Positions 4,092 through 28,713 of a stretch of DNA of 35,621 bases are shown here, one piece after another. The notes below the pieces were generated by a model that saw only the letters and a program-made list of their open reading frames with translations, had not been told where the DNA came from and made no database searches. The stretch's first letter is position 1, and each line of letters starts with the position of its first letter. The translations under genes and the position numbers were made by a program. Source of the DNA: an uncultured Acidimicrobiales bacterium (GTDB lineage: Bacteria; Actinomycetota; Acidimicrobiia; Acidimicrobiales; AC-14); the NCBI GenBank assembly GCA_902805665.1, contig CADCTB010000004.1, forward strand, positions 1 through 35,621, in the 5' to 3' direction.

Positions 4092-4373
4092 ATGGCCCAG
4101 GCACCCGAGGAGCTCGGAGAACCCCAACCGCCGCGCGGACACGTGCGGGTCGTGTACCTGGGCCCGGTGGCGCCGCACTGGCAGGTGGTGTCCGACTTCG
4201 GCGACCGCAATGTGATCGACGAGATGAGCCAGCGCATCATGGCCCGACTGCTCCTGCTGCCCCCGCACGACCCCCAGTTCCGCCGCAACCGGGAACGGGT
4301 GGTGCGTGACGCAGAGCGGGAGAACATCCTGCTCGACTGGGATCTGGGCCTGCCCGACGAGGACGGCTCCTAG
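4092..4373 (+). CDS. Conserved-looking small protein of unknown function
   Basis: I do not recognise this 93-residue protein. It is soluble, with a hydrophobic strand RVVYLGPVAPHW near residue 18, a central helix DEMSQRIMARLLLLP and an acidic C-terminus DWDLGLPDEDGS. It has no cysteine and no signal peptide. Coding status is supported by normal high-GC third-position codon use, a -10 box at leaderless spacing, and a clean slot between whiB and the kinase gene. The inverted repeat at 4043-4057 may regulate it. Confidence 0.65.
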   Translation: MAQAPEELGEPQPPRGHVRVVYLGPVAPHWQVVSDFGDRNVIDEMSQRIMARLLLLPPHDPQFRRNRERVVRDAERENILLDWDLGLPDEDGS

Positions 4374-4436: not shown

Positions 4437-5702
4437 ATGCCACTGTCGAACGCTGACGTCGTGGTCGTCGCCGTCGCGGCAGCGGTCGTGCTCGTCGCCT
4501 TCCTCTGGGTGCTCCTGTCCCGGCGGGCCACCGCCCGGCGCCTGGCCGTGCTCACCGCCCGCATGGGCGAGTCCGACCTGCAGTTCGGCGGTCGGGCCGG
4601 GCTGGAGACCGGCCTGGCCAAGCTCGAGCGGGTGGTCGACAGCACCGTCTCCGTCGCCAGCGAGGCCCGTTCCGGCAAGTCCCTGCTCGAGCAGGCCCTG
4701 GCGGCCGTCCCTCAGGGTGTCGTCGTCGGCAACGACCAGGGCGCAGTGGTCTTCCAGAACGCCACCGCCGCCTCGTTGCTGAGCGAGGTCGGCAGCGGGT
4801 CGACCGCACGCGACGCGGTGCAGGCGCTGCTGGTGTCGGCGGCCGACGGCAAGGCCGACAGCTCCTCGGTCAAGGTCGACGGGCCGCCGCCGCGCACCTT
4901 GCGGTTCCAGGCTTCGCCGCTCCACGACGAGCAACGGACGCTCGGGGGCATCGTGGTGATCGACGACCAGTCCACCATCGACCGCCACGAATCGGCCCGC
5001 CGGGAGTTCGTGGACAACATCGGCCAGGAGCTGAAGCGGCCGGTCGGCGCCCTCGGCCTGCTGGCCGAGACACTGGCGGCCGAGAAGGATCCGGCCGTCG
5101 TCGCCCGGCTCTCCCGGCGGCTGCAGAACGAGGCCCAACGGGTGTCCCGGGTCGTCGACGACCTCATGCTCCTGTCCCGCATGGACGCCGAGGAGCATCC
5201 GGCCCCGGAGGCGGTTCCCGTCCATCTCATCGTCGCCCAGGCCGCGGAGCGGGTGCGGGCCGCGGCCCAGGACAAGGACATCACCGTCAACTTCGGCGAA
5301 CCTCCCCAGCGTCTGACGGTCATGGGCGACCGTCGCCAGCTGGTGGCCGCGGTCTACAACCTCCTGGACAACGCGGTGAAGTACTCCCCGGCCCGATCGG
5401 TGGTCGAGGTTCGTGGCCGCCAGGACGGCGACTGGGTCGACGTGAGCGTGCGTGACCAGGGCATGGGGATTCCCGAGGCCGACCTGGAGCACATCTTCGA
5501 GCGCTTCTACCGGGTGGAGGGGGCGAGGGCCCGCCATGTCGGAGGCACCGGCCTCGGCCTCGCCATCGTCCGCCACGTGGTCGGCAACCACCGGGGCGAG
5601 GTGAGGGTGAAGTCCGAGGAAGGGCAGGGGTCGACGTTCGTGGTCCGCCTTCCCGCCGGGCCGCCCCTCGCCGCCCCCGCGGCCTCGGCCAAGGCGGGTT
5701 GA
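4437..5702 (+). CDS. SenX3-like sensor kinase lacking the phosphoacceptor histidine
   Basis: A 421-residue membrane sensor of SenX3 type: one N-terminal membrane helix (about residues 5-28), a PAS domain (about 85-180), a dimerisation helix (about 187-255) and a HATPase domain (about 290-410). The ATP-binding boxes look intact: NLLDNAVKYSP at 308, DQGMGIP at 340, FERFYRV and GGTGLGLAIV at 369. The H-box, normally SHELKTP in SenX3, reads GQELKRP. The phosphoacceptor histidine is Gln197 (codon CAG, 5025-5027) and the phosphatase-linked Thr at +4 is Arg. No response regulator gene is adjacent, although SenX3 is usually paired with RegX3. It may act as a pseudokinase or ligand-sensing scaffold. 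Confidence 0.85.
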   Translation: MPLSNADVVVVAVAAAVVLVAFLWVLLSRRATARRLAVLTARMGESDLQFGGRAGLETGLAKLERVVDSTVSVASEARSGKSLLEQALAAVPQGVVVGNDQGAVVFQNATAASLLSEVGSGSTARDAVQALLVSAADGKADSSSVKVDGPPPRTLRFQASPLHDEQRTLGGIVVIDDQSTIDRHESARREFVDNIGQELKRPVGALGLLAETLAAEKDPAVVARLSRRLQNEAQRVSRVVDDLMLLSRMDAEEHPAPEAVPVHLIVAQAAERVRAAAQDKDITVNFGEPPQRLTVMGDRRQLVAAVYNLLDNAVKYSPARSVVEVRGRQDGDWVDVSVRDQGMGIPEADLEHIFERFYRVEGARARHVGGTGLGLAIVRHVVGNHRGEVRVKSEEGQGSTFVVRLPAGPPLAAPAASAKAG

Positions 5703-5758: not shown

Positions 5759-5764
5759 GACGCG

Positions 5765-7087
5765 GTGGCGCCTTCCACCACGGACGGCGGCTGGCAGCCG
5801 TTGCGCAGGCCACCGCGCACGGGCGGGCCGCTGGGCCTGAGCCGCTCACCGTTCTCCCGGCTCGCCGTCGTCCACATGCTGGCCGTCGCCGGCGACACGT
5901 TCATCACCATGGCCCTGGCCGGGTCCCTCTTCTTCTCCATCAGCCCCCAGGCCGCCCGTGGCCGGGTGGCGCTGTACCTGCTGCTGACGGTCGCCCCGTT
6001 CGCGGTCGTCGCCCCACTCCTGTCGCCCGTGGTCGACCGCAGCCGAGGAGGCCGCCGGGCCCTGATCATCGCCGGCGCGGCCAGCCGGGCTGTCGTCTGC
6101 CTCTCCATGGCCGGCCACCTCGACAGCCTCATGCTGTTTCCGGAGGCCTTCGCCGTACTGGTCCTGTCCAAGACCCACATGGTCACCAAGAGCGCCCTCG
6201 TCCCGGGCACCGTCTCCGGCGAAGGGGAGCTGGTGGCGGCCAACTCGCGGCTGGCCGTGCTGTCGGTCCTCGCCGGGTTCGTGGCCGCCATCCCCGGCGT
6301 CATCGTGTTGAAGGTCGGCTTCCTCGGGGCGGACTGGGTGTTGCGCCTGGCCGCGCTCACCTTCGCCGCCACCGCGCTGGCCGGCTTCCGGCTCGCCCGC
6401 CCGGCCGCCGGAGACGACCGGCTGCCGCCCGTCGCCGTGGCCGAGGCCGAGCTCCACGCCGCGTCGGTGCGCATGGCGGCGTCGGCCATGGGGGTCCTGC
6501 GGGCCATCGTCGGCTTCCTGACCTTCCTGGTGGCGTTCGCCTTCCGCCACGAGAACGCCCCGGCGTGGTGGTTCGGCGTCGTCCTGGCCGCCAGCATGGT
6601 CGGCTCCTTCCTCGGTGCGGCGGTGGCGCCCCGGCTGCGCCGGCGCTTCGTGGAGGAGCGCATCCTGCAGGGCTCGCTGGCGACGGTGGTGGGGGCCGGC
6701 CTGGTGGCGGTCTGGATCGGAGGCCGGCCCGCCGCCGCCCTCCTGGCGGCCGCGGTGGGTCTGGCCGCCGGTGCCGGAAAGCTGGCGTTCGACAGCATCG
6801 TGCAACGCGACGCGCCCGACGCCATCCGAGGCCGCACCTTCGCCCGGTTCGAGACCCGTTTCCAGCTGGCCTGGGTGGTCGGCGCCGCCCTGCCGGTGGC
6901 CGTCCGCATCCCCAGTGGTACGGGGCTCGGGCTGCTCGCCCTCACCGCCGCCCTTGCCCTGTCGTCCTACCTGGCCGGGCTCCGGGCCCTCGACCACCAC
7001 CACGAGCCGGCCCCGCCGACCGACGCCGCCCCGGCCGGCCGTTCAGTGGAGCCGGCGCCCGCCCGCCGGCGGCTGGGCCGCCACTAG
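5765..7087 (+). CDS. Major facilitator superfamily transporter
   Basis: A 440-residue polytopic membrane protein with about 10-12 hydrophobic helices. The helix 2-3 loop carries an MFS-like signature, LLSPVVDRSRGGRRALIIAG, near residue 84. A cytoplasmic N-terminus rich in Pro and Arg precedes the first helix, and a similar second half begins near residue 240. The arrangement resembles the MFS_3 (efflux/secretion effector) group. The substrate cannot be told from the sequence. The gene ends at 7087, overlapping by 4 bp the end of the convergent Zincin_2 gene. Confidence 0.75.
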   Translation: MAPSTTDGGWQPLRRPPRTGGPLGLSRSPFSRLAVVHMLAVAGDTFITMALAGSLFFSISPQAARGRVALYLLLTVAPFAVVAPLLSPVVDRSRGGRRALIIAGAASRAVVCLSMAGHLDSLMLFPEAFAVLVLSKTHMVTKSALVPGTVSGEGELVAANSRLAVLSVLAGFVAAIPGVIVLKVGFLGADWVLRLAALTFAATALAGFRLARPAAGDDRLPPVAVAEAELHAASVRMAASAMGVLRAIVGFLTFLVAFAFRHENAPAWWFGVVLAASMVGSFLGAAVAPRLRRRFVEERILQGSLATVVGAGLVAVWIGGRPAAALLAAAVGLAAGAGKLAFDSIVQRDAPDAIRGRTFARFETRFQLAWVVGAALPVAVRIPSGTGLGLLALTAALALSSYLAGLRALDHHHEPAPPTDAAPAGRSVEPAPARRRLGRH

Positions 7088-8262
7088 TCCTCCGGCAGGT
7101 CGATGCGGGCCAGCCACAGCCCGGGCGCGTCGAGCTCGGCGGGAGTGGGCAGTTCCCGCTCGGAGATCCACAGGCGGCTGAGCCCGGCTTCACCGGCCCG
7201 CTCCACCACGCCCCGGATGAAGGTGGCGCCCCGCTCGTACTGGCCGCGTCCGAGCTCGAGGCCCAGGAGGCGGGCGGCGAAGCGCTCGCCGTCGGTGGCC
7301 TCGACCCGCCGCCGGCGCAGCGCCTCGGTGAGCTGGCTGTAGGAGGCGATGAGCCCCCGGCCCACCGTGTCCATGACGTGGTCGACGTAGCCCTCGATGA
7401 CCGCGGTGAGGGTCTCGATGCGGCTGAGGGTCTCCTGCTGTCCGGGCGAGCGCATGGCGCCGAGCAGCGTCTCCGGGTTGCCCAGGACGGCCTGCAGCCC
7501 GGCGGCGTCGGTGGGGTCGAGGTTGCCGAGGCTGGCTTCGAGAGCCTCGGGGTCGACCTCGAACCGGCTGACGTACTCGTTGATGAGCTGCTCGAGGCGG
7601 GCGCGTACGTGCGGGCGGCCCAGGACCGCGTGGTGGGCGACCTCCTGCAGGCAGACCCAGAGGCGGAAGTCGTCGGCCGCCAGGCTCCACTCGGCGGCGA
7701 AGGCGTCGAGGTTGGCGGGCACGATGAGCAGCTGGTCGGCCGGCAGGCGCGGAAGGGGCAGGTCGTACTGACCCAGGGCCCGGCGGGACAGGTGGCCGAG
7801 CATGAACCCCGACTGCATGCCGAGGAGCACGGGCCCGAGCATCTTCCCGAGATCTCCGAGGAGCTGGGTGGTGGGGTCGGCCGGGCTGTCGTCGTCGGTG
7901 CCCCCCGCCGCCGACAGCGACGTGGCCAGGCGCTCGAGGTACGGCCGGTAGGCCTCCAGGCTGTGCAGCGCCCAGTCGCCCCGGCTGACCGGCAGGATGC
8001 TCAGGACTCCACCGGCGATGGACGTGTCCAGGCCCGTGGCGGCGCTGACCCGCAGGTCGGCCACCCGGACGAGCTCTTCGAGGCGGATGCGCTCGAGGGG
8101 GTCGACGTTGGGCTCGGCCAGGCCGTCGGTGGCCAGCCAGGCGGCCGTCTGACGGGCCACGTCCCAGTTGACCGGGCCCTGGCGGCTGAAGAGCCGGGCC
8201 AGGTCGCCGAACATCGGCAGGCCCTCGAACGGATTCCCGCCCTCGGGGCCGGAGCTGCTCAC
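7084..8262 (-). CDS. Zincin_2 (DUF2342) family protein with altered HExxH motif
   Basis: A 392-residue soluble protein of the DUF2342/Zincin_2 family, known from actinobacteria as a putative zinc metallopeptidase and sometimes labelled F420-biosynthesis associated. Family blocks include VNWDVARQTAAWLA near residue 31, GQYDLPLPR near 165, IVPANLDAF near 180, FRLWVCL near 199 and ERFAARLLGLELGRGQYERG near 326. The zinc site, expected as HEVAH, reads QEVAHH: the first ligand is Gln206 (codon on plus 7645-7647), while Glu207 and His210 remain. The GTG start is supported by a TACGAT box 6 nt upstream. In M. tuberculosis a homologue lies beside YlbL and UPF0182 genes, both present further along this window. 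Confidence 0.8.
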   Translation of the reverse strand: MSSSGPEGGNPFEGLPMFGDLARLFSRQGPVNWDVARQTAAWLATDGLAEPNVDPLERIRLEELVRVADLRVSAATGLDTSIAGGVLSILPVSRGDWALHSLEAYRPYLERLATSLSAAGGTDDDSPADPTTQLLGDLGKMLGPVLLGMQSGFMLGHLSRRALGQYDLPLPRLPADQLLIVPANLDAFAAEWSLAADDFRLWVCLQEVAHHAVLGRPHVRARLEQLINEYVSRFEVDPEALEASLGNLDPTDAAGLQAVLGNPETLLGAMRSPGQQETLSRIETLTAVIEGYVDHVMDTVGRGLIASYSQLTEALRRRRVEATDGERFAARLLGLELGRGQYERGATFIRGVVERAGEAGLSRLWISERELPTPAELDAPGLWLARIDLPED

Positions 8263-8308: not shown

Positions 8309-9484
8309 TCACGACCCCGCTGGGCGTTCGGCGACGGTCACCTTCATGCCATGGTGCTGGTTGTCCCGGACGACATCGAGGGTGCACACCTCACCGGGGC
8401 GGTGAGCCCGGACCGACATGGCCAGCATCCCCATCGACGTCACCGGCTTGCCGTTCACACCCACGATCACGTCGCGGGCGGCCAGCCCGGCCCGCTCGGC
8501 CGGGCTGTCGGCCTTCACCCGTTGGATCATGGCCCCGCCGTCGACGTTCAGCGACTGCGCGGTCGGCCCGTCGAGGTCGTCACCCTCCACGCCCAGCCAC
8601 ACCGTGACCACCCTGCCGGTGGTGATGAGCTGCTCGGCCGCCGACCGGGCGGCGTCGATGGGGTTGGCGAAGCCGAACCCTTCGGCGCCCGCGTCGGTCA
8701 TCGCCATCGCGGTGGTGATGCCGATGACCCTGCCGCCGGCGTCGAGCAGCGCTCCCCCGGAGGAACCCGGGGCGATCGGGGCGTCGGTCTGGACCATGTC
8801 GACCAGCGTCCTGCCCGTCCTGGTGGTGACGCCGCGGTGGAGGGCGCTGACCACCCCGACCGTCACCGACGGCCCACCGCTGAGGCCCAGGGGCGACCCC
8901 ATGGCGATGGCCTCCTGCCCCACCTTGAGGTTGGTGGCGGATCCCAGGTCGGCGAACGGGAAGGGACCGCCTTCGATCTTGACGACCGCCGTGTCGCTGT
9001 CGGCGTCGGAGCCGATGACGCGACCGGGGACCTGGCGCCCGGTGGCCAGCACGACCGTGACCTCATGAGCGCCTTCCACGACGTGGGCGTTGGTCAGGAT
9101 GTGGCCGTCGCTCCGGAAGATCACGCCCGACCCGCTGCCGCTGCGACTCCGTTCGACCTTCAGCTGCACGATCGTCGGCCTCACCCGGTCGGCGATCGAG
9201 ACCACATCCGCCCCGGCGCCGACGAACATCGGGGTCGGCAGGACCCCGGCGGTGTCGGCCGGCCGGCTCCCTCCGCCGGCGTCGAGCAGGCTGCCGGCAA
9301 CCACGGCCAGGCCGGTCGAAAGGAGGCTGGCGGCCACGGCCGACGCCACGCCCACCACCCACAGCTGCCGCCGGGCCGAGGGCCGCTTCGGACCTATCTC
9401 GGACGGGTGCCGCCAGAGGCGGTCGTCCGGAAGAGGGGGTTGGCGGTACGGCTTCGGTTCGTCATCCGGCTCGACGAACTCCAT
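8309..9484 (-). CDS. HtrA/DegP-type trypsin-like serine protease with PDZ domain
   Basis: A 391-residue membrane-anchored protease. A cytoplasmic Pro/Arg-rich N-terminus is followed by one membrane helix (about residues 41-66), a chymotrypsin-fold domain and a C-terminal PDZ domain (about 290-385). The catalytic triad looks complete: His134 in ILTNAHVVEG, Asp164 in ADSDTAVVKI, and Ser242 in APGSSGGALL. It would degrade or refold damaged envelope proteins outside the membrane. In mycobacteria htrA is part of the sigE-rseA-htrA-tatB cluster; here it lies about 5 kb from the sigma cluster on the other strand. Confidence 0.9.
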   Translation of the reverse strand: MEFVEPDDEPKPYRQPPLPDDRLWRHPSEIGPKRPSARRQLWVVGVASAVAASLLSTGLAVVAGSLLDAGGGSRPADTAGVLPTPMFVGAGADVVSIADRVRPTIVQLKVERSRSGSGSGVIFRSDGHILTNAHVVEGAHEVTVVLATGRQVPGRVIGSDADSDTAVVKIEGGPFPFADLGSATNLKVGQEAIAMGSPLGLSGGPSVTVGVVSALHRGVTTRTGRTLVDMVQTDAPIAPGSSGGALLDAGGRVIGITTAMAMTDAGAEGFGFANPIDAARSAAEQLITTGRVVTVWLGVEGDDLDGPTAQSLNVDGGAMIQRVKADSPAERAGLAARDVIVGVNGKPVTSMGMLAMSVRAHRPGEVCTLDVVRDNQHHGMKVTVAERPAGS

Positions 9485-10020: not shown

Positions 10021-10376
10021 ACGCCCTCGTGTTCCTGGGAATAGCGGTCGTGCTCAGCGCGGCGGGCTGCCTCGTGCTCTGGTTCCGCAGCCGCCAGCCC
10101 GGGTCGATGGACGCCCACATCCGAGACTTCGCCCGCGAGCTGGACGCGCTGGCGCCCGGCTCGCCCCTCGACCGGCAACGGGGCCGCCCGGTCGTCCGTG
10201 AGGACGGGCCGGAGCACCCGAAGCGGAACGAACCGGGGCCCGAGCGGCCCTTCGAGCGGAGGACAGGGCCCGAGCGGCCCTTCGAGCGGAGGACAGGGCC
10301 CGAGCGGCCCTTTGAGCGGAGGACAGGCCCCGAGCGGCCCTTCGAGCGGGGAACAGGGGGGCGGCCTCCTGGCTAG
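10017..10376 (+). CDS. Small single-helix membrane protein with decapeptide repeats
   Basis: A 119-residue protein of unknown function. Residues 3-23 (ALVFLGIAVVLSAAGCLVLWF) form one membrane helix, followed by a basic cytoplasmic region and four copies of GPERPFERRT or close variants, encoded by the 30-bp repeat at 10231-10350. The ATG overlaps the moaE stop (ATGA). The gene ends inside the beginning of mreB: by 8 nt if mreB starts at a CTG at 10369, or by 179 nt if it starts at the GTG at 10198. A link to MreB at the membrane is inference from position. Confidence 0.7.
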   Translation: MNALVFLGIAVVLSAAGCLVLWFRSRQPGSMDAHIRDFARELDALAPGSPLDRQRGRPVVREDGPEHPKRNEPGPERPFERRTGPERPFERRTGPERPFERRTGPERPFERGTGGRPPG

Positions 10377-11373
10377 GGACCTCGCCATCGACCTCGGGAC
10401 GGCCAACACCCTCGTCTACGCCAAGGGCAGGGGCATCGTCCTCAACGAGCCCACGGTGATCGCCCTCAACGTCGAGACCCACGACGTCCTGGCCATGGGC
10501 CACCAGGCGTGGCAGATGATCGGCCGCACGCCGGGCTACATCCAGGCCGTCCGGCCCCTCCGCCAGGGCGCCATCACCGACTTCGAGATCACCCAACGGA
10601 TGATCCGGCTGCTGCTCCAGCGGGCCGGGCTCTCGCGCTTCCAGCGACCCCGGGTGCTGCTCTGCGTCCCCTCGGCCATCACCGAGGTGGAGCGCCGGGC
10701 GGTGAAGGAGGCAGCTCGCCAGGCCGGGGCCATGGACGCCCAGCTCGTCGCGCAGCCCATGGCCGCCGCCATCGGTGCCGGGCTGCCCATCCACGAGCCG
10801 CTCGGCAACCTCATCGTCGACATCGGGGGTGGCACGTCGGAGACGGCGATGATCTCCCTGGGCGGCATCGTCGCCCTCGAGGCCATCCGGGTCGGCTCCT
10901 TCGACATCGACGCGTCGATCCAGGCCTTCGTGCGCCGCGAGTACGGCATGGCCATCGGGGAGCGCACGGCCGAGGAGATCAAGCTGGCCATCGGCTCCGC
11001 GGCACCGGTGGCCGACGACGTCAAGGCCGAGGTGCGCGGCCGCGACCTCATGAGCGGGCTGCCCAAGACGGCCATCCTGTCGCCCGAAGAGGTGCGCGAC
11101 GCCATCGACGAGAACGTGCGGGCCATCGTCGAGTCGGTGATCAAGTGCCTCGGCCACGCTCCCCCCGAGCTGGCCCAGGACCTCATCCAGCAGGGCATCC
11201 ACCTGGTGGGCGGGGGAGCCATGCTCCGGGGCTTCGACCAGCGGCTGGCGGAGGAGACCGAGCTGCCGGTCCACCTGGTGGAGGCGCCGCTGGAGTGCGT
11301 GGTCCTCGGCGCCGGCAAGTGCCTCGAGGCCTTCGACTCGCTCAAGGTCCTGTTCATGGGGGCCGAGAGATGA
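10198..11373 (+). CDS. mreB: MreB-like rod shape-determining actin homologue
   Basis: An actin-family cell-shape protein that polymerises under the membrane and guides wall synthesis. Family blocks are ARDLAIDLGTANTLVYAKGRGIVLNEP (phosphate 1), LIVDIGGGTSETAMISLGG (phosphate 2), GEFxAE-like GERTAEEIKLAIGSA, and LVGGGAMLRGFDQRL (adenosine site). The first ATG/GTG/TTG in frame is GTG 10198, which adds a 57-residue Ser/Gly/Pro extension encoded by the tandem repeat. Usual MreB proteins begin MARDLAIDLGTANT, and that M aligns with a CTG at 10369 that has GGGGGG about 7 nt upstream and overlaps the previous stop by 8 nt. The CTG may be the real start (334 residues). No mreC or mreD is nearby. Confidence 0.9.
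   Translation: MRTGRSTRSGTNRGPSGPSSGGQGPSGPSSGGQGPSGPLSGGQAPSGPSSGEQGGGLLARDLAIDLGTANTLVYAKGRGIVLNEPTVIALNVETHDVLAMGHQAWQMIGRTPGYIQAVRPLRQGAITDFEITQRMIRLLLQRAGLSRFQRPRVLLCVPSAITEVERRAVKEAARQAGAMDAQLVAQPMAAAIGAGLPIHEPLGNLIVDIGGGTSETAMISLGGIVALEAIRVGSFDIDASIQAFVRREYGMAIGERTAEEIKLAIGSAAPVADDVKAEVRGRDLMSGLPKTAILSPEEVRDAIDENVRAIVESVIKCLGHAPPELAQDLIQQGIHLVGGGAMLRGFDQRLAEETELPVHLVEAPLECVVLGAGKCLEAFDSLKVLFMGAER
10231..10350 (+). repeat. Four tandem 30-bp repeats, in frame for two overlapping reading frames
   Basis: Four contiguous 30-bp units (10231, 10261, 10291, 10321) differ by only a few bases, mostly at the edges; the core CGAGCGGCCCTTCGAGCGG recurs in all with one C/T change. The unit length is a multiple of three, so both overlapping frames are kept open. 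One frame reads GPERPFERRT repeats (membrane protein), the other GPSGPSSGGQ repeats (upstream extension of mreB). Confidence 0.9.
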
Positions 11374-13071: not shown

Positions 13072-14161
13072 GACCGAGGGAAGTCTAACGCCGCCGCAGG
13101 ACGGGGAGCCCATCGCTCCTCAACCCTGGTCACGGTCATCACGCCGGTGGGCGATTGCCTTGGTGGTCCTGAGCTTCATCCTCCTCGGCGTAGGCGTCGT
13201 CGCCAGGTACGTCCAGCTCCCGTACGACACCCTCGGCCCCGGCTCGGCCCGGGCGGTGAACTCGGTGATCGAGGTGAAGGGCCATCCCTCCTACCCCCCC
13301 CAAGGCAAGGTCTTCTATACGACGGTCTCCGTCCGCGAGCGGGTGAACCCGTACGAGGCGCTCGCCGGCTGGCTCGACCCGGCGGTGGAGGTCGTTCCGG
13401 AGGTCAAGGTGCGGGGGACGGTGCCCCCTGACCAGTTCCAGCGCATGAACATCGAGGCCATGGCCGACTCCAAGACGACGGCGCAGGTCCTCGCCCTGCG
13501 CGAGCTGGGCTACACCAACCTGGGGGCGGGGGCCGAGGTGGTCGAGGTCGTCCCGGGCCAGCCCGCGGCGCCGGTGCTGAAGCCGAAGGACATCATCGTC
13601 GCCATCGACGGCAAGCCGGTGGCCACGAGCAGCGATGCGGTGGCCGCCATCCGGGCCCGCGCCGCCGGCGACACCCTGGCCATGCGGATCAAGCGCGGCG
13701 ATGCTGCGCCGATCGACGTCGAGGCCGTCCTGGCCGAGGGTGAGGGGCGGCCGCTCCTGGGCGTGCGCCTCTCCACCAAGATCGAGCTGCCGTTCGACAT
13801 CAACATCGACTCCGGCCGCATCGTCGGGCCCTCCGCCGGCCTGGCCTACGGGCTCGAGCTGCTCGACCTGCTGACCCCGGGCGAGCTGACAGGGGGCTCG
13901 TCGGTGGCCGCCACCGGTGAGCTGCTGGCCGACGGCACGATCGGGCCCATCGGCGGCGTGGCGCAGAAAGCGGTGACCGTCCGGCGGGCGGGCATCAAGG
14001 TCTTCCTGGTGCCGAAGGAGAACGAGGCGGAGGCGCGGGCCCACGCAGGGGGCGGCCTGGAAATCCGCGGCGTTGCCAACTTCGACGAGGCCCTGAAGGC
14101 CCTGGCCACCCTCGAGGGCAGCAACGCCTTGGCCCTGGGCAAGCCCGGCGCGGGCTCCTGA
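13064..14161 (+). CDS. YlbL-type PDZ and Lon-protease domain membrane protein
   Basis: A membrane-anchored serine/lysine peptidase of up to 365 residues. A single helix (about 28-47, WAIALVVLSFILLGVGVVA) is followed by an extracellular domain beginning YVQLPYDTLGPGSA, a PDZ domain (about 160-225, with PGQPAAPVLKPKDIIVAIDGKPV) and a Lon-type catalytic domain. The catalytic dyad is Ser257 in GPSAGLAYGL and Lys302 in GGVAQKAVTVRRAG. It probably processes envelope proteins. The start is uncertain: GTG 13064 is the only standard start giving a positive cytoplasmic N-terminus, but it overlaps the divergent gene's start by 8 nt. A terminator hairpin follows the stop. Confidence 0.85.
   Translation: MDTTEGSLTPPQDGEPIAPQPWSRSSRRWAIALVVLSFILLGVGVVARYVQLPYDTLGPGSARAVNSVIEVKGHPSYPPQGKVFYTTVSVRERVNPYEALAGWLDPAVEVVPEVKVRGTVPPDQFQRMNIEAMADSKTTAQVLALRELGYTNLGAGAEVVEVVPGQPAAPVLKPKDIIVAIDGKPVATSSDAVAAIRARAAGDTLAMRIKRGDAAPIDVEAVLAEGEGRPLLGVRLSTKIELPFDINIDSGRIVGPSAGLAYGLELLDLLTPGELTGGSSVAATGELLADGTIGPIGGVAQKAVTVRRAGIKVFLVPKENEAEARAHAGGGLEIRGVANFDEALKALATLEGSNALALGKPGAGS
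13082..13087 (-). promoter_or_regulatory. -10-like box (TAGACT) for the small membrane protein gene
   Basis: On the minus strand TAGACT lies 10 nt before the GTG at 13071. The spacing is longer than at the other leaderless genes, so the call is tentative. Confidence 0.3.
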
Positions 14162-14436: not shown

Positions 14437-17076
14437 ATGTCGCAGGAGGCCGCCCAGCTGCGGTTCGCGGTGGAGTTCGCCACCTTCCTGGTGGCCGTGG
14501 CCGGGGCCACCATCGTGATGCTGCGTCCCCAACTGGTGGGGGCCAACAGGCGTTCACGTGTCGTGCTGGCCCTGGGCTTCGCCCTGGTCGCCGCCGCCGC
14601 CTTCCTGCACGGCTCACTGCTCACGGGCACGAGAGAGCTGGCGGTCATCGGTCTCCGAGGCGCCGGCATCGTCCTCCTGGCCGTGGGCACGCTCGGGTGG
14701 GAGGAGGACCGGTCGACCAGGCGGGCCCTGTGGACCGCCCTGGTGCTGATGGCCGCGGCCGAGGGCGCTTCCGCCACCGACGCCGGCACGCTCGCCGACT
14801 GGGCGCGGGGCGCGGGAGCCCTGGCCCTGGGCACCGTCCTCATCAGCTCGGCCCGCCGCTCGGTGCCCGCCCGCATCGCGGTGAGCGCCGTCGCCACCCT
14901 CCTCGTCGTCGTCCTCGCCGTGTCGCTGGCTCTGTCCATCGTGATCTCCGGCAACATCGAGAGTGAGGCACTCCGGCGGGTGGACTCCCGGGCGCTGGCC
15001 GAGGCCGAGGAGGTCCAGAACAGCTCGGGTGAGGACGCCAGGAACAGCGCCAAGCTCGTCGCCCTCACCATCCAGGGCCGCCCCGCCGACTTCCTCGTCG
15101 GACTGTCGAACCGCCCGGTGGCCGATGCCAGCGTGCTGGGGAACCTGAACGACTTCGTGCGGGAGGGCCTGCTGTCGGCTGACGGACCGCTGCTCTACGC
15201 CACCGAGAAGCGGAGGGTCATCGCCGCCGCCGGAGGTCTCGACGCCGTCGGTGCGGACGCCCTCGTGGGGTCCCGCGCCGTGACCGAGCTGCTGCAGCAG
15301 CAGCGGGTGCGGGAGGCCGGCTCCATCGAGGTGGTGGGAGGCCGGGTCCTGGCCGTCGGCGTCCACACCGTGGTCGCCGAGACGGCAGAGGGACCCCGCG
15401 TCGTCGGTCTTGTCATCGCATCTGCGGACCTGACCCGTGAGTACCTCAGCCAGAGGGTCCGGAACGACCCGAGGGTGACTCTGGCCCTCGTCGACCGGGA
15501 GCGCGTCCTCGTCAGCTACGGGCAGCCGCTGGCGAGCGGGCCGGTGCTGGGGGTCGCCCGCCGGGCCCTGACCACGGGCGGCGCCCGCACCGTCGCCGGA
15601 GGCACCTTCCTGGCCTCGCACGCGGTCCAGGCCCCCGACGGCGCGCGGGTACTCGCCGTGGTCGCCACCCTGCCGACCACCGCGGTGGACGACGCCCGCA
15701 ACTCGCTGTTCCAGAGCCTCTTCCTGGTCGGCCTCCTCACCGCCCTGGTGGCGTTCTTCGTCGCGGTGATCGTGGGGGAGCGGATCGGGCAGGGGCTCCG
15801 CCGTCTCACCGTCGCCGCCGAGGCCATCCAGGCCGGTGACCTGAGCGTCCGGACCAACGTCGCCAGCCCCGACGAGGTCGGCGTGCTCAGCGCCACTTTC
15901 GACTCGATGGCCCAGTCCATCGAGACTCTGGCCGCCGAGCTGCGCCAGACGGCGGAGGAGGAAGCCAAGACCCGCACCCGGCTGGAGACCGTCGTCGCCG
16001 GGATGGGCGAGGCTCTCGTGGCGGTGGACGCGGACGGCCGGATCACCACCTTCAACGCCGCGGCCGAGGAGCTGTTCGGCGTCCGGGCCCGCGAGGCGGT
16101 CGGGCAGCTGGCCTCGTCGGTGACCAACATCGCCAGCGAGGACGGCACGGATCTCGCCCCCCGTCTGGCCCAGCCCTCGTCGAGCCCGTGGAGCTCGCCC
16201 GCGGTGGTCATCCGGGACCAGGAGACGCGCATCCCCGTGGCGCTCTCGGCCGGGAGCCTCGGCCGGCCCGGCGGAGCTCCGGTCGGAGGCGTCTATGTGC
16301 TGCGGGACATGCGGCGCGAGCGTGAGGCGGAGCGGGCCAAGAGCGAGCTGCTGTCCAACATCAGCCACGAGCTCCGGACGCCCCTGGTGCCGATCAAGGG
16401 CTACGCCGAGCTGCTGTTGCGCCGGAAGGTCCCCGAGGCCAAATCGCGGCAGTCTCTTGCCGAGATCGTCGAGGCGGCCGATCGTCTGGAGCTGGTCGTC
16501 CAACGGCTGCTCGACGTCGCCGCCCAGGAGGCCACCCCTCTGAGCATCCGGAGAGAGCCGGTTGAGGTCCGTCCGCTCCTGGAGTCGGTCGTCACCCGGT
16601 GGAAGAGCCGGGTCGACGACAAGCACCCCATCACCCGCCGGACGTCACGCAACCTGCCGGAGCTCACGGGCGACCGTCGACTGCTCGAGCGCAGCATCGA
16701 CGAGCTGGTCGACAACGCGGTGAAGTTCTCGCCCGCAGGAGGCGCCGTCTCGGTGACGGCCACCGTGTCGTCCAACGGCGCCGGCGATGGGGAGGCGGCG
16801 CCCGCGGTGCGCATCTCGGTGCGCGACCACGGGATCGGCATCCCCGACGACCGCCTCGACCGCATCTTCGAAGACTTCTCGCAGGGCGACAGCTCGCCCA
16901 CGCGTCAGTTCGGGGGGCTCGGCCTGGGCCTGGCCCTCGTGCGACGCGTCGTCCACGCCCACCAGGGGGAGCTGGTCTGCGAGACCGCCCCCGGTGAGGG
17001 CTCCACCTTCACGATGATCCTGCCGATAAGCCCCACCGTCAGGCCGGTTCCGCCGCAGAAAGCTGGTACCCGATGA
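14437..17076 (+). CDS. Large orphan sensor histidine kinase (periplasmic sensor, HAMP, PAS, HisKA, HATPase)
   Basis: An 879-residue kinase. The N-terminal half has about five hydrophobic helices up to residue 135, another at about 145-170, an extracytoplasmic sensor domain to about 425, and a further helix (LFLVGLLTALVAFFVAVIVG). HAMP (about 448-500), PAS (about 520-620), HisKA and HATPase domains follow. The H-box is canonical, SNISHELRTP, with phosphoacceptor His644; NAVKFSP, DHGIGIPDD and GGLGLGLALV mark ATP binding. No response regulator gene is adjacent. Its stop overlaps the start of the FecR-domain lipoprotein gene (ATGA), so the two are co-translated and may form one sensing unit. The 275-bp gap upstream shows no clear -10 at leaderless spacing; a TATCAT at 14333 is possible. 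Confidence 0.87.
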   Translation: MSQEAAQLRFAVEFATFLVAVAGATIVMLRPQLVGANRRSRVVLALGFALVAAAAFLHGSLLTGTRELAVIGLRGAGIVLLAVGTLGWEEDRSTRRALWTALVLMAAAEGASATDAGTLADWARGAGALALGTVLISSARRSVPARIAVSAVATLLVVVLAVSLALSIVISGNIESEALRRVDSRALAEAEEVQNSSGEDARNSAKLVALTIQGRPADFLVGLSNRPVADASVLGNLNDFVREGLLSADGPLLYATEKRRVIAAAGGLDAVGADALVGSRAVTELLQQQRVREAGSIEVVGGRVLAVGVHTVVAETAEGPRVVGLVIASADLTREYLSQRVRNDPRVTLALVDRERVLVSYGQPLASGPVLGVARRALTTGGARTVAGGTFLASHAVQAPDGARVLAVVATLPTTAVDDARNSLFQSLFLVGLLTALVAFFVAVIVGERIGQGLRRLTVAAEAIQAGDLSVRTNVASPDEVGVLSATFDSMAQSIETLAAELRQTAEEEAKTRTRLETVVAGMGEALVAVDADGRITTFNAAAEELFGVRAREAVGQLASSVTNIASEDGTDLAPRLAQPSSSPWSSPAVVIRDQETRIPVALSAGSLGRPGGAPVGGVYVLRDMRREREAERAKSELLSNISHELRTPLVPIKGYAELLLRRKVPEAKSRQSLAEIVEAADRLELVVQRLLDVAAQEATPLSIRREPVEVRPLLESVVTRWKSRVDDKHPITRRTSRNLPELTGDRRLLERSIDELVDNAVKFSPAGGAVSVTATVSSNGAGDGEAAPAVRISVRDHGIGIPDDRLDRIFEDFSQGDSSPTRQFGGLGLGLALVRRVVHAHQGELVCETAPGEGSTFTMILPISPTVRPVPPQKAGTR

Positions 17077-25098: not shown

Positions 25099-28000
25099 TC
25101 AGCCCTGGCGACGGCCCTGTGCCAACCGCGTCGACGTCCTGAAGTTCGAGCATGAGGCGTATCCCGCCAGCGCGTGGAGACGCTCGCGCTCGAGCCGCAT
25201 CTTGAGCTCCCGCGTCGTCCTCAGCCCCTGCTGCACCAGCTCACTCGCCCGTTCTGCGTCGCCCGTCCGGTTCCGGTCCAGCAGCATTGCCGCATACGCG
25301 CGCTGGGTCCGCACCACGAAGGTCCTGGCGCCGATCTGCCCGTTGACTGCGAGCGCCTCCTCGAAGTGACGCTCTGCGTCGTCCCACCGTCGCATCGCCG
25401 TGGCAAGGATGGCGAGCGATCGCCAGACCGAGCCCAGGCAGAACTGCCCGATCCCGACCACGACGAGCCGGCGTGCGAAGGGCAGGATCCGGTCGTAGAG
25501 CACCTCCGCCCGCTCCTCGTCCCCGAGGATGGCGCAGGTCTCGGCCAGAAGGGTCATGCCGGTGGACCACGTCCAGTCGAGGGGTAGATCGAATCCGCCG
25601 GAGGCCAGCAGCTCGAACTGCTCACGACCCTCCTCCAGCCGACCGTCCTCGCAGTACGCGAGGGCCAGGCCGGCGCGGAAGGTGGGGATGGCGGGCAGCT
25701 CGTCGACGTAGGGCCGGAGGAAGTTGACGGCGTCTCCCAACCGGCCCTGGTCCCACCAGGCGACGCACAGCTGGACGGCCATGAGCAGGGGCGCGTCCGG
25801 TTGTCTCGAGCGCTGACCGAGCTCGAACGCGGCGAAGATGCCGTCCTCGGCATCGGCCGACCCGGTGAGCAGGAGCTGCATCGTCTCCGCAGTCCTCGTG
25901 AGCCAGTTCCAGATCGGCTGGCGCAGGTCACCGGCCAGACGCGTCGCCGTTGCCAACTCCTCACGGGCACGAGCGACATCTGCTGCTTCGAAGAGGCAGA
26001 TGGCCAGGTACAGGCGGCCCCGGAAGATGAGCTCCCGGTTGTCGACCTCCGCCGCCACCTGCAACAGCTCTTCCAGCAGGACCAGGCGCTCGTCCAGCGT
26101 GGTCGGGTCCCATGTGGCGACGATGCGCGCCACCAGCACCTCGGCCAGGCCCGCCCGGTCATCCAGGCGACGAACCATGGCGGTGGCGCTCTCGCACAGC
26201 GCCCGTCGCCGGTCACGGGCGGTTGTCCAGTACTGCTCGACGGCCAGCTGGCTCAGCAGGTTCGCTCGGAGCACGCTGTCGCCCGGTTCGAGTGCAGCGA
26301 GCGCCTCTTCGTGGAGGGCGACTATGGCGTGGTCCACGCGTCCTATCTCGCCGAACCAAGCGGCGGTCCGGGAGCTCCCCAGGGCGGCTCGGGCGAAGCG
26401 CTCGCCGTCGCCCAGTTCACGACTCAGGCGAGCGGCCTCGAACATCGTCAAACGGAAACGGGTGTCACCGGCGCGGCGCTGGGCGTCGCCGAGGGCGAGG
26501 AGGAGGTCACAGCGCAGGGGCGATTGCTCCCGGCTGCCGGTCTCCAGCATGGTCAAACTCCGCTGGAAGTGGTCGGCGGCCTCTTCGTACGCCAGCTCCG
26601 TCAGGGCCTTGTCGCCCGCCTGGCGGGCGTACATGACCGCCTTGGTCGTATCCCCCGTCGGGCCCGCCGAGAACCAGTGGTGGGCCAGAGACGGTAGTTG
26701 GGCCTCCGGCTGCGGCCAGAGCGCCTCGAGAGCCTCCGCCACCTTTCGGTGCACCTGAGCTCGCCGGGTAGGGCCCAGGGCGTCGTACAGCGAGTGGCGA
26801 ATCAGCGCATGGGCGAAGCTGAACCGGCCGACCCGGCCCGGGACCTCCGTGACGAGCGCGGCGGCCATCGCCTCCTCGACGACGTCGAGCATCTCGTGCT
26901 CCGTGAGCCCGGTGGCGCCGCTGGTCACGTCGAGGTCGAACTCCATACCGATCACTGCGGCGACCGGAAGGGCGCGGTTCACCTCGGGGGAGAGCCGCTC
27001 GAGCCGACGGCGGATCACATCTCGCACGCTGTCGGGGATGCCGACTTTCTCGAGATCCGGCGTAGTGAGGAAAGGATCGTCGCCGCCGGCGATGGCGAGT
27101 AACTCGTCAAGGTGCCGCACGATCTCGGTGACGAAGAACGGGTTGCCGTCGGTCTCTCTCCAGAGGGCTTTGGCCAGGGTGGCGACGCCACCTTGGAGCC
27201 GGCGTCCAGCGGTGTGCTCCACCAGGCTGGCGACGTCCGCCTCGTCGAGTCCCCCGAGGACGATGCGTTCCAGGCCCTGCTGGCGCCCGAGGTCGGCCAG
27301 GACCTCCCTGAGGGGATGGGTCGGCGCGAGCTCGGTGTGGCGGTGGGTGGCCACCAGGAGCACGGCCATGGGCTCGACCGACGTCACCAGATGGCGGAAG
27401 AGCAGCACGGTCGGCTTGGTCGCCCAATGGAGATCCTCGAGCACGAGGACGACCGGGGCAGCCTCCGACGCCCGCGCCAACAGGTTGGCGACGGCCTGGA
27501 ACAGCTGATAGCGGTCGGTCTCGGCGTCGGCCGCGGGCGGACGGGGTACCTGCGGCACCCGTCCGGCCAGGCCGGGGACCATGCGGGCCAGCTCGCCTCC
27601 GCAGTCCCGCAGGTGGGCCGCCAGCTCCTCGTCGCCGCAGCCCCCGATGTACAGGCCCAGGGCGTCGATGAAGGGCTGGTAGGGGACGCCGAGCTCCGGG
27701 TGACAGCGTCCGTAGAGCACCCGGGCGCCGTGGGAGTGGGCGGCAAGGGCCGCCTCGTTCACGAGTCGGGTCTTGCCGATGCCGGGCTCACCGGCGACGA
27801 GGACCACCTGGCGCTCGCCGGCCGTCGCGCGCCTCCATGCGTCGCCCAGAAGGCCCAGCTCGGTGCGGCGCCCGAGGAAGCGGACATCCTGGGACACGCG
27901 GAGTTGGGCCGGCATGGTCAGGGGCCGGGCAACCGGCCTCGCCGCCGCCCCGGCGAGGGCGGGTTCGTGGGTGAGGATCGCCTGTTCCAGTTCCCGCAGG

Positions 28001-28713
28001 GCGGGGCTGGGGTCGATGCCGAGCTCCTCCACCAGCACCCGCCGGGTCTCCTGGTAGCCGGCGAGCGCCTCTGCCTGTCGCCCGGAGCGGTAGAGCGCCA
28101 CCATCTGTTGTGCCCTCAGCCGCTCGCGGAACGGGTACTCGGCCACCAGGGCGTCGAGCTCGCCCACCGATTCGGCGTGCCGGCCCAGCGCGAGCTCGGC
28201 GTCGTACAGATCCTCGACCGCGCCCAGGCGGGCGTGTTCGAGGCGCACGGCGTGCGGGTGGAAGGCGGGGTGTTCGGCCACGTCCTCCAACGCCCGGCCC
28301 CGCCACAGCGCGAGGGCTTGACGCAGGATTTCGGCGGCACGGGCGGGGGCGCCCGCGGCCAGTGCCTCACGGGCCTCGACCACGAGGGCGCCGAACCGTA
28401 GGGCGTCGACCTGTTGGGGCTCGACCTGCAGGAGGTAACCCGGTCGTTTGGTTATGAGGATTCGTGGAGGTGCGGCCGCCGCTCGTTCCGGCTCGAGCAG
28501 CTTGCGGAGGTTGGACACATACACCTGCAGCACGGCGCCGGGGTCGGCCGGGGGGACATCGCCCCACAGCACGTCGGCCAGGCGGTTGGCGGAGACAACC
28601 TCGTTGGCGCGCGTCACCAGCATGGCCAGAACGGCCCGCTGCTTGGGCCCACCCAGAGTGAGCGGCCATTGGTCTCGAACCACTTCGACCGGTCCCAGCA
28701 GCCGGAACTCCAT
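25099..28713 (-). CDS. AfsR/SARP-type regulator: DNA-binding, BTAD, ATPase and TPR domains
   Basis: A 1204-residue transcription factor. Residues 1-95 form an OmpR-like winged helix (MEFRLLGPVEVVRDQWPLTLGGPKQRAVLAML). The BTAD domain follows (about 100-245). A signal-transduction ATPase spans about 275-640 with Walker A VAGEPGIGKTRL (Lys314) and Walker B VVLVLEDLHWA. The rest is TPR-like helices, for example AYEEAADHFQRSLTMLE. Such proteins activate secondary-metabolite or development genes in actinobacteria, with the TPR part sensing a partner. The ATG is preceded by AAGGAAG, and a TAGCGT box lies on the minus strand at 28788-28783. No biosynthetic cluster is visible nearby, so the target is unknown. 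Confidence 0.88.
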   Translation of the reverse strand: MEFRLLGPVEVVRDQWPLTLGGPKQRAVLAMLVTRANEVVSANRLADVLWGDVPPADPGAVLQVYVSNLRKLLEPERAAAAPPRILITKRPGYLLQVEPQQVDALRFGALVVEAREALAAGAPARAAEILRQALALWRGRALEDVAEHPAFHPHAVRLEHARLGAVEDLYDAELALGRHAESVGELDALVAEYPFRERLRAQQMVALYRSGRQAEALAGYQETRRVLVEELGIDPSPALRELEQAILTHEPALAGAAARPVARPLTMPAQLRVSQDVRFLGRRTELGLLGDAWRRATAGERQVVLVAGEPGIGKTRLVNEAALAAHSHGARVLYGRCHPELGVPYQPFIDALGLYIGGCGDEELAAHLRDCGGELARMVPGLAGRVPQVPRPPAADAETDRYQLFQAVANLLARASEAAPVVLVLEDLHWATKPTVLLFRHLVTSVEPMAVLLVATHRHTELAPTHPLREVLADLGRQQGLERIVLGGLDEADVASLVEHTAGRRLQGGVATLAKALWRETDGNPFFVTEIVRHLDELLAIAGGDDPFLTTPDLEKVGIPDSVRDVIRRRLERLSPEVNRALPVAAVIGMEFDLDVTSGATGLTEHEMLDVVEEAMAAALVTEVPGRVGRFSFAHALIRHSLYDALGPTRRAQVHRKVAEALEALWPQPEAQLPSLAHHWFSAGPTGDTTKAVMYARQAGDKALTELAYEEAADHFQRSLTMLETGSREQSPLRCDLLLALGDAQRRAGDTRFRLTMFEAARLSRELGDGERFARAALGSSRTAAWFGEIGRVDHAIVALHEEALAALEPGDSVLRANLLSQLAVEQYWTTARDRRRALCESATAMVRRLDDRAGLAEVLVARIVATWDPTTLDERLVLLEELLQVAAEVDNRELIFRGRLYLAICLFEAADVARAREELATATRLAGDLRQPIWNWLTRTAETMQLLLTGSADAEDGIFAAFELGQRSRQPDAPLLMAVQLCVAWWDQGRLGDAVNFLRPYVDELPAIPTFRAGLALAYCEDGRLEEGREQFELLASGGFDLPLDWTWSTGMTLLAETCAILGDEERAEVLYDRILPFARRLVVVGIGQFCLGSVWRSLAILATAMRRWDDAERHFEEALAVNGQIGARTFVVRTQRAYAAMLLDRNRTGDAERASELVQQGLRTTRELKMRLERERLHALAGYASCSNFRTSTRLAQGRRQG

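Follow-up and report, generated by a model that had tools for sequence, protein, structure and literature searches.

A conserved SenX3-like histidine kinase without its phosphoacceptor histidine or a linked RegX3 in a genus of uncultured Acidimicrobiales

To our knowledge, descriptions of natural pseudo-histidine kinases mostly concern isolated examples such as DivL and RocA. In DivL of Caulobacter, a tyrosine replaces the phosphoacceptor histidine, and the protein binds DivK~P and controls CckA. SenX3, for its part, is normally paired with RegX3, as in the SenX3-RegX3 system of mycobacteria, and the threonine at H+4 of the H-box is linked to phosphatase activity. Phosphate sensing by mycobacterial SenX3 needs the PAS domain, and PhoU shifts the kinase to phosphatase mode (PMC12301784). 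As for kinase-like proteins, DivL binds ATP poorly (PMC4211667); RocA of group A Streptococcus interacts with CovS, keeps a dispensable histidine and lacks residues of the CA domain (PMC7028121); and ChrS and HrrS heterodimerise, with a ChrS pseudokinase raising cross-phosphorylation by HrrS (PMC9491836). In the literature searched, outside of which lie most subscription journals, we found no description of a pseudo-histidine kinase in the SenX3/PhoR phosphate-sensing family.

How does the present locus compare with these systems? The window, a 35,621-nt stretch from an uncultured Acidimicrobiales bacterium, encodes a protein containing RREFVDNIGQELKRPVGALGLLAETL, here termed SenX3-A (Table 1). 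It has a TM-PAS-DHp-CA layout with one predicted N-terminal TM helix, matches HisKA (residues 187-252, 41.8 bits vs a cut-off of 26.9) and HATPase_c (residues 297-407, 108 bits) in Pfam, and shares 44-56% full-length identity with RegX3-paired SenX3. Judged by this full-length homology and its nesting among SenX3 proteins, it is of the SenX3/PhoR type. The closest curated families in NCBIfam are the phosphate kinases PnpS/PhoR, below equivalog thresholds (244.5 bits vs the PnpS cut-off of 400), which is no distinguishing mark of SenX3-A because canonical relatives also score below. The AlphaFold model has a mean pLDDT of 81, with values mostly >80 in the DHp and CA except for the ATP lid and the DHp ends. 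It comprises an N-terminal helix, a PAS domain, a DHp of two helices and a complete CA domain, and its top structural matches are DivL (4q20, Z 24.4) and WalK (4zki, Z 22.8).

Table 1. Features of the SenX3-A gene and its surroundings in the window
Feature	Position	Strand	Basis or remark
c5, conserved 93-aa upstream neighbour, ancestral synteny marker	4092..4373	+	synteny
SenX3-A, SenX3/PhoR-type pseudo-histidine kinase, 421 aa	4437..5702	+	translation, Pfam, alignment, AlphaFold model
N-terminal helix with membrane-spanning stretch, residues 5-42	4449..4562	+	AlphaFold model, low confidence, pLDDT ~50-69
PAS-like sensor domain, residues 94-177	4716..4967	+	model secondary structure; PAS_4 match in canonical paralogue
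DHp helices, residues 179-251; slowest-evolving part	4971..5189	+	Pfam, dN/dS, model
Degenerate H-box GQELKRP (canonical SHELKTP)	5022..5042	+	Gln197 = CAG at 5025-5027; Arg201 replaces Thr
CA / ATP-binding domain, residues 258-407	5208..5657	+	Pfam, model, structural matches
N-box NLLDNAVKY, both Asn kept	5358..5384	+	alignment
G1 box DQGMGI	5454..5471	+	alignment
F box FERFYR	5496..5513	+	alignment
G2 box GTGLGL	5544..5561	+	alignment
MFS-like transporter directly 3' of SenX3-A, on the side where relatives' RegX3 sits	5759..7087	+	
Zincin_2 (PF10103) protein, synteny marker	7084..8262	-	Pfam, synteny
HtrA-type serine protease, synteny marker	8309..9484	-	NCBIfam, synteny
MreB-like protein, synteny marker	10198..11373	+	name from reading its sequence; conserved among loci

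A first-pass annotation had claimed that the H-box of this kinase is degenerate and that the ATP-binding boxes N, G1, F and G2 are kept, and our alignment agrees on both counts. Positions 197 and 201 (H+4) are His and Thr, respectively, in 53/53 canonical SenX3 and Gln and Arg in SenX3-A, and N308, N312, D340, G342, G344, F354, G370, G372 and G374 are all retained. Likewise canonical are the alpha-1 residues at H+8, H+11 and H+15 (A205, L208 and T212), which are the positions altered in the HK853 rewiring structures according to the titles of the structure entries. A replacement phosphoacceptor in the vicinity was considered and rejected: close to the H-box there is just one histidine, His184, for which canonical SenX3 has no equivalent and one orthologue (G029A) has Gln. 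SenX3-A thus resembles SenX3/PhoR kinases in its full-length homology, domain layout, HisKA and HATPase_c matches, ATP boxes and the SenX3-RegX3 gene neighbourhood of its own family, but differs from them in lacking the phosphoacceptor His, the phosphatase-linked Thr and a linked RegX3.

The same annotation had likened the protein to DivL. The likeness extends to the histidine kinase fold, the replaced phosphoacceptor and maintenance by selection, and a sister lineage (G007) shares with DivL a Tyr in place of the His. However, DivL is not a SenX3, acts in an unrelated pathway and has multiple PAS domains, whereas the ATP motifs of SenX3-A are complete; phmmer searches with SenX3-A indicate no closer homology to DivL (75 bits for 4q20 vs 129 for WalK-type chains), and the DivL-type Tyr (or Ala) is found among the orphan kinases only in G007 (Tyr) and family f10 (Ala), SenX3-A having Gln. 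The comparison holds as an analogy only. Like SenX3-A, RocA is a stand-alone kinase-like membrane protein, and it is modelled to act via a canonical kinase; unlike RocA, with its six-TM sensor and a CA domain without catalytic residues, SenX3-A has one predicted TM helix, has lost the His and has kept complete CA boxes. The ChrS pseudokinase comes from evolved Corynebacterium glutamicum, where one kinase of a paralogous pair is inactivated and the other does the phosphotransfer, but the lesion is a laboratory frameshift in the CA domain, as opposed to a natural, fixed H-box loss with intact CA motifs. A heterodimer-type model (RocA-CovS, ChrS-HrrS) fits SenX3-A at least as well as DivL does.

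Is the altered motif genuine? The genus of the window (g1) was sampled as three species, namely the window's genome (G000), G115 and G029. All three carry GQELKRP, and the SenX3-A orthologues of the latter two have 84% protein identity; sequencing error, which had been argued against earlier, and chance are therefore excluded. Gln is fixed in these close homologues, and among otherwise close homologues of SenX3-A we found none with a normal H-box. In pairwise comparisons of the three species (NG86), dN/dS of SenX3-A is 0.18-0.20, comparable with the 0.18-0.33 of the canonical paralogues of the genus, and falls to 0.07-0.14 in the DHp and 0.12-0.19 in the CA domain, placing the ATP site under purifying selection. 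A decaying relic, or an error of sequencing or assembly, might be suspected from the missing partner gene, the lost His and the eroded H-box (GDLLAGP) of the long-branched f11 protein. With the same motif in three species, open frames, an omega around 0.18 and the DHp as the most constrained part, we regard this as very improbable, and contamination and a pseudogene were rejected on the shared motif and the omega value.

The surroundings of the gene point to a loss of RegX3. In the window, the gene order is c5-senX3-MFS-Zincin_2-HtrA-mreB, and, in keeping with the earlier claim that no response regulator gene adjoins the kinase, its 5' neighbour encodes the 93-aa conserved protein, the MFS gene follows directly on the 3' side, and the RegX3 genes of this genome lie on other contigs. 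The common order in many families of Acidimicrobiales is pstB-phoU-senX3-regX3-MFS-Zincin_2(-HtrA-mreB), with a SHELKTP-type SenX3, and wherever SenX3 was clear in the other sampled members of the window's family, which holds for six genomes (G079, G146, G200, G172, G199 and G197), it has SHELKTP and is followed directly by RegX3. The c5 protein, with the core HVRVVYLGPVAPHWQVVSDFGD...LLLLPPHDPQFRRNRERVVRDAERENILLDWDLG, has no family match in Pfam or NCBIfam; it shows 68-91% identity across several families of Acidimicrobiales, and its gene is usually found upstream of senX3. Elsewhere, the window encodes a sensor kinase of HAMP-PAS-HisKA-HATPase layout (14437-17076, +), whose H-box, NISHELRTP, is intact and which lacks an OmpR-type response regulator in its vicinity, as well as a large regulator of the BTAD/SARP type that contains AAA and TPR domains (25099-28713, -).

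Could SenX3-A have become a sensor outside the phosphate regulon, acting on some other partner, perhaps one encoded by a neighbouring gene (c5, MFS, Zincin_2 or HtrA)? Its position apart from pst/phoU genes, the conserved c5-SenX3-MFS-Zn2 order in His-less lineages and the PAS domain, which is the most diverged (29-33% identity to that of a second SenX3 described below), would all accord with such neofunctionalisation. Yet the MFS-Zn2-HtrA-MreB block also flanks RegX3-paired SenX3 in other families; the neighbours are ancestral, and the synteny is thus inherited rather than a new functional link. We deem this reading rather unlikely.

A search of the genome for a second, intact SenX3 and for RegX3-like regulators, as the first-pass annotation had proposed, yielded one His-containing kinase and two RegX3 copies. 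The kinase, SenX3-B (contig C96, locus L064, 5187-6263), has a SHELRTP motif, is 45% identical to SenX3-A and precedes phoU and pst genes in a pst-phoU operon, with RegX3-1 ~7 kb downstream, after pstB (13117-13809). RegX3-2 adjoins PstB-PhoU on another contig (G000:C205:1457-2164). Both regulators have an intact receiver Asp, and degenerate partner regulators were accordingly rejected as an explanation. RegX3-2 recurs in 3/3 genomes of the genus, each time next to PstB-PhoU, without a kinase and with an intact Asp; counting G014, such a second RegX3 in a pst/phoU context was seen in four genomes with a His-less SenX3 (G000:C205, G115:C101, G029:C4 and G014:C20). A tree of RegX3 proteins unites the two copies of the genus (86/85) and joins them to the RegX3 of the family to which the genus belongs (83/75). 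In the kinase tree, SenX3-B falls into a separate SenX3 clade with the B copies of families f15, f8 and f11 (100/99). The RegX3 on the SenX3-B contig thus appears, at 83/75 support, to be the native RegX3 of the window's family (f1), and the trees suggest, with moderate support, that the additional kinase captured the native regulator.

The window's genus is not the only one affected. The same locus, likewise RegX3-less, has a His-less SenX3 in four other family-level lineages of the order: f15 (G014; GQELKAP, Gln), f10 (four genomes; TAELRSP, TAELKAP or TAELRTP, Ala), f8 (G007; SYELKTP, Tyr) and f11 (G010; GDLLAGP, Asp, on a long branch), f8 and f11 being represented by one MAG each and the second f15 genome (G068) having its H-box lost at a contig end. 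Each of these His-less genomes also carries a canonical SenX3 beside RegX3 and PhoU. Where both of two SenX3 copies have RegX3 nearby (G012, G040 and G121), His is present in both, and when 84,980 species genomes were scanned independently, with search patterns that left out the His position, RegX3-adjacent SenX3 had His in 77/77 cases among the 80 loci listed. One genome, G080, has a RegX3-less SenX3 at the same locus, RegX3 on another contig and no second SenX3, and here the His is kept. In G135, G187 and G030, an orphan SenX3 was not found; either these bacteria can do without it, or it was overlooked because the MAGs are incomplete. Two further SenX3-like kinases without a nearby RegX3 (L279, G047:C56, GHELRAP; L280, G124:C19, SHELRSP) retain the His and have the phosphatase-linked Thr replaced.

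How often has the His been lost? On the kinase tree, SenX3-A of the genus nests with the canonical G079 and G200 proteins of its own family (99/94) and the other His-less kinases group apart from it (80/86), although a single His-less clade is not rejected on this tree alone (p=0.276). A tree of the MFS-Zincin_2-MreB neighbours again groups the genus with members of its family, puts the remaining His-less genomes in a clade apart (100/99), and rejects one common origin for all His-less loci (AU p=1.4e-5). Provided the locus was inherited vertically, there have therefore been at least two independent conversions, with five residue changes required in total. The position of G080, which nests within the f8/f10/f11/f15/f30 clade, suggests that orphaning preceded His loss, but this placement is not firm, a tree leaving G080 outside being unrejected (p=0.25). 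For the association of RegX3 loss with His loss, two independent events have firm support, a number at which a sign test cannot reach significance.

What might SenX3-A do? From the observed H-box loss, its conservation and its context, we infer that the protein could not relay phosphate and would act through contact. The account we consider most likely, at about even odds, sees SenX3-A as a displaced native SenX3, now a pseudokinase that still bears an ATP site and would tune phosphate signalling through contact with SenX3-B and/or RegX3. Ancestrally, the native SenX3 would have lain beside RegX3; the linked regulator would have left the locus, with His-containing SenX3-B of the pst-phoU operon there for phosphotransfer; and SenX3-A would then have lost its phosphoacceptor (to Gln) and the phosphatase-associated Thr, with the PAS sensor, dimerisation helices, RegX3-docking face and full ATP-binding motifs kept under purifying selection. 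Such a protein would still dimerise and sense via its PAS domain and, unphosphorylated, modulate the Pho response by forming hetero-oligomers with SenX3-B that shift the kinase/phosphatase balance of the latter; possibly, it also docks RegX3 or RegX3~P. Since SenX3 activity depends on PAS and PhoU, a catalytically silent, PAS-bearing partner could tune this balance. Given 29-33% PAS and 52-56% DHp identity between the two kinases of the same genome, heterodimers are plausible, if not evident. We favour contact with SenX3-B first, RegX3 docking second and trans-phosphorylation by the retained CA domain third.

Docking may, in principle, suffice by itself: in a DivL-like manner, SenX3-A would bind RegX3 or RegX3~P rather than SenX3-B and serve as a sink, protector or phospho-specific sensor without phosphotransfer. 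Ten His-less proteins could be compared in this respect, and the canonical docking residue is present in nine at A205 and in eight each at L208 and T212. The Asp-bearing, kinase-less RegX3-2 of all three genomes of the genus would offer a target, and DivL, which tops the structural matches, a precedent (PMC4211667). On the other hand, E211 on the same helix is changed in the f10 and f8 pseudokinases, the docking face may be retained for dimer stability instead of regulator binding, and SenX3-B could serve RegX3-2. Direct reading of RegX3 is thus a possibility to which we assign a low likelihood.

Lower still do we rate a split kinase, in which the CA domain of SenX3-A phosphorylates the His of SenX3-B within a heterodimer, so that SenX3-A would be active in trans and itself unphosphorylatable. 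In the window's genus, none of the N, G1, F and G2 residues is lost and their domain is constrained (see dN/dS above), and N312 and the G1/G2 glycines also persist in the f8, f10, f11 and f15 pseudokinases. In these four families, however, the first N-box Asn, N308, is replaced, the CA domain of f10 evolves faster than that of its canonical paralogue (dN/dS 0.22-0.47 vs 0.11-0.20), and the DivL and RocA precedents work without catalysis. ATP turnover is probably less important in f8, f10, f11 and f15, whereas the ATP site looks complete in the window's genus.

Within one bacterial order, and as read from the sequences of largely draft assemblies, some of them known MAGs, the loci form a natural series. 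It comprises SenX3 that has its His and a paired RegX3, the RegX3-less kinase of G080, in which the His persists, and RegX3-less kinases in which Gln, Ala, Tyr or Asp has taken its place. Its members share a syntenic locus, and each converted genome has a canonical paralogue, which makes the conversion of a displaced kinase into a regulator open to experiment, as is the question whether orphaning precedes phosphoacceptor loss. Tentatively, and at somewhat less than even likelihood, kinase displacement in the phosphate two-component system may be a recurrent route by which, once a second SenX3 takes over RegX3, the displaced native SenX3 turns into a phosphorylation-dead regulator of its successor. 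In the window's genus, where the RegX3 on the SenX3-B contig appears to be native, the incoming kinase may have captured the regulator of the old one.
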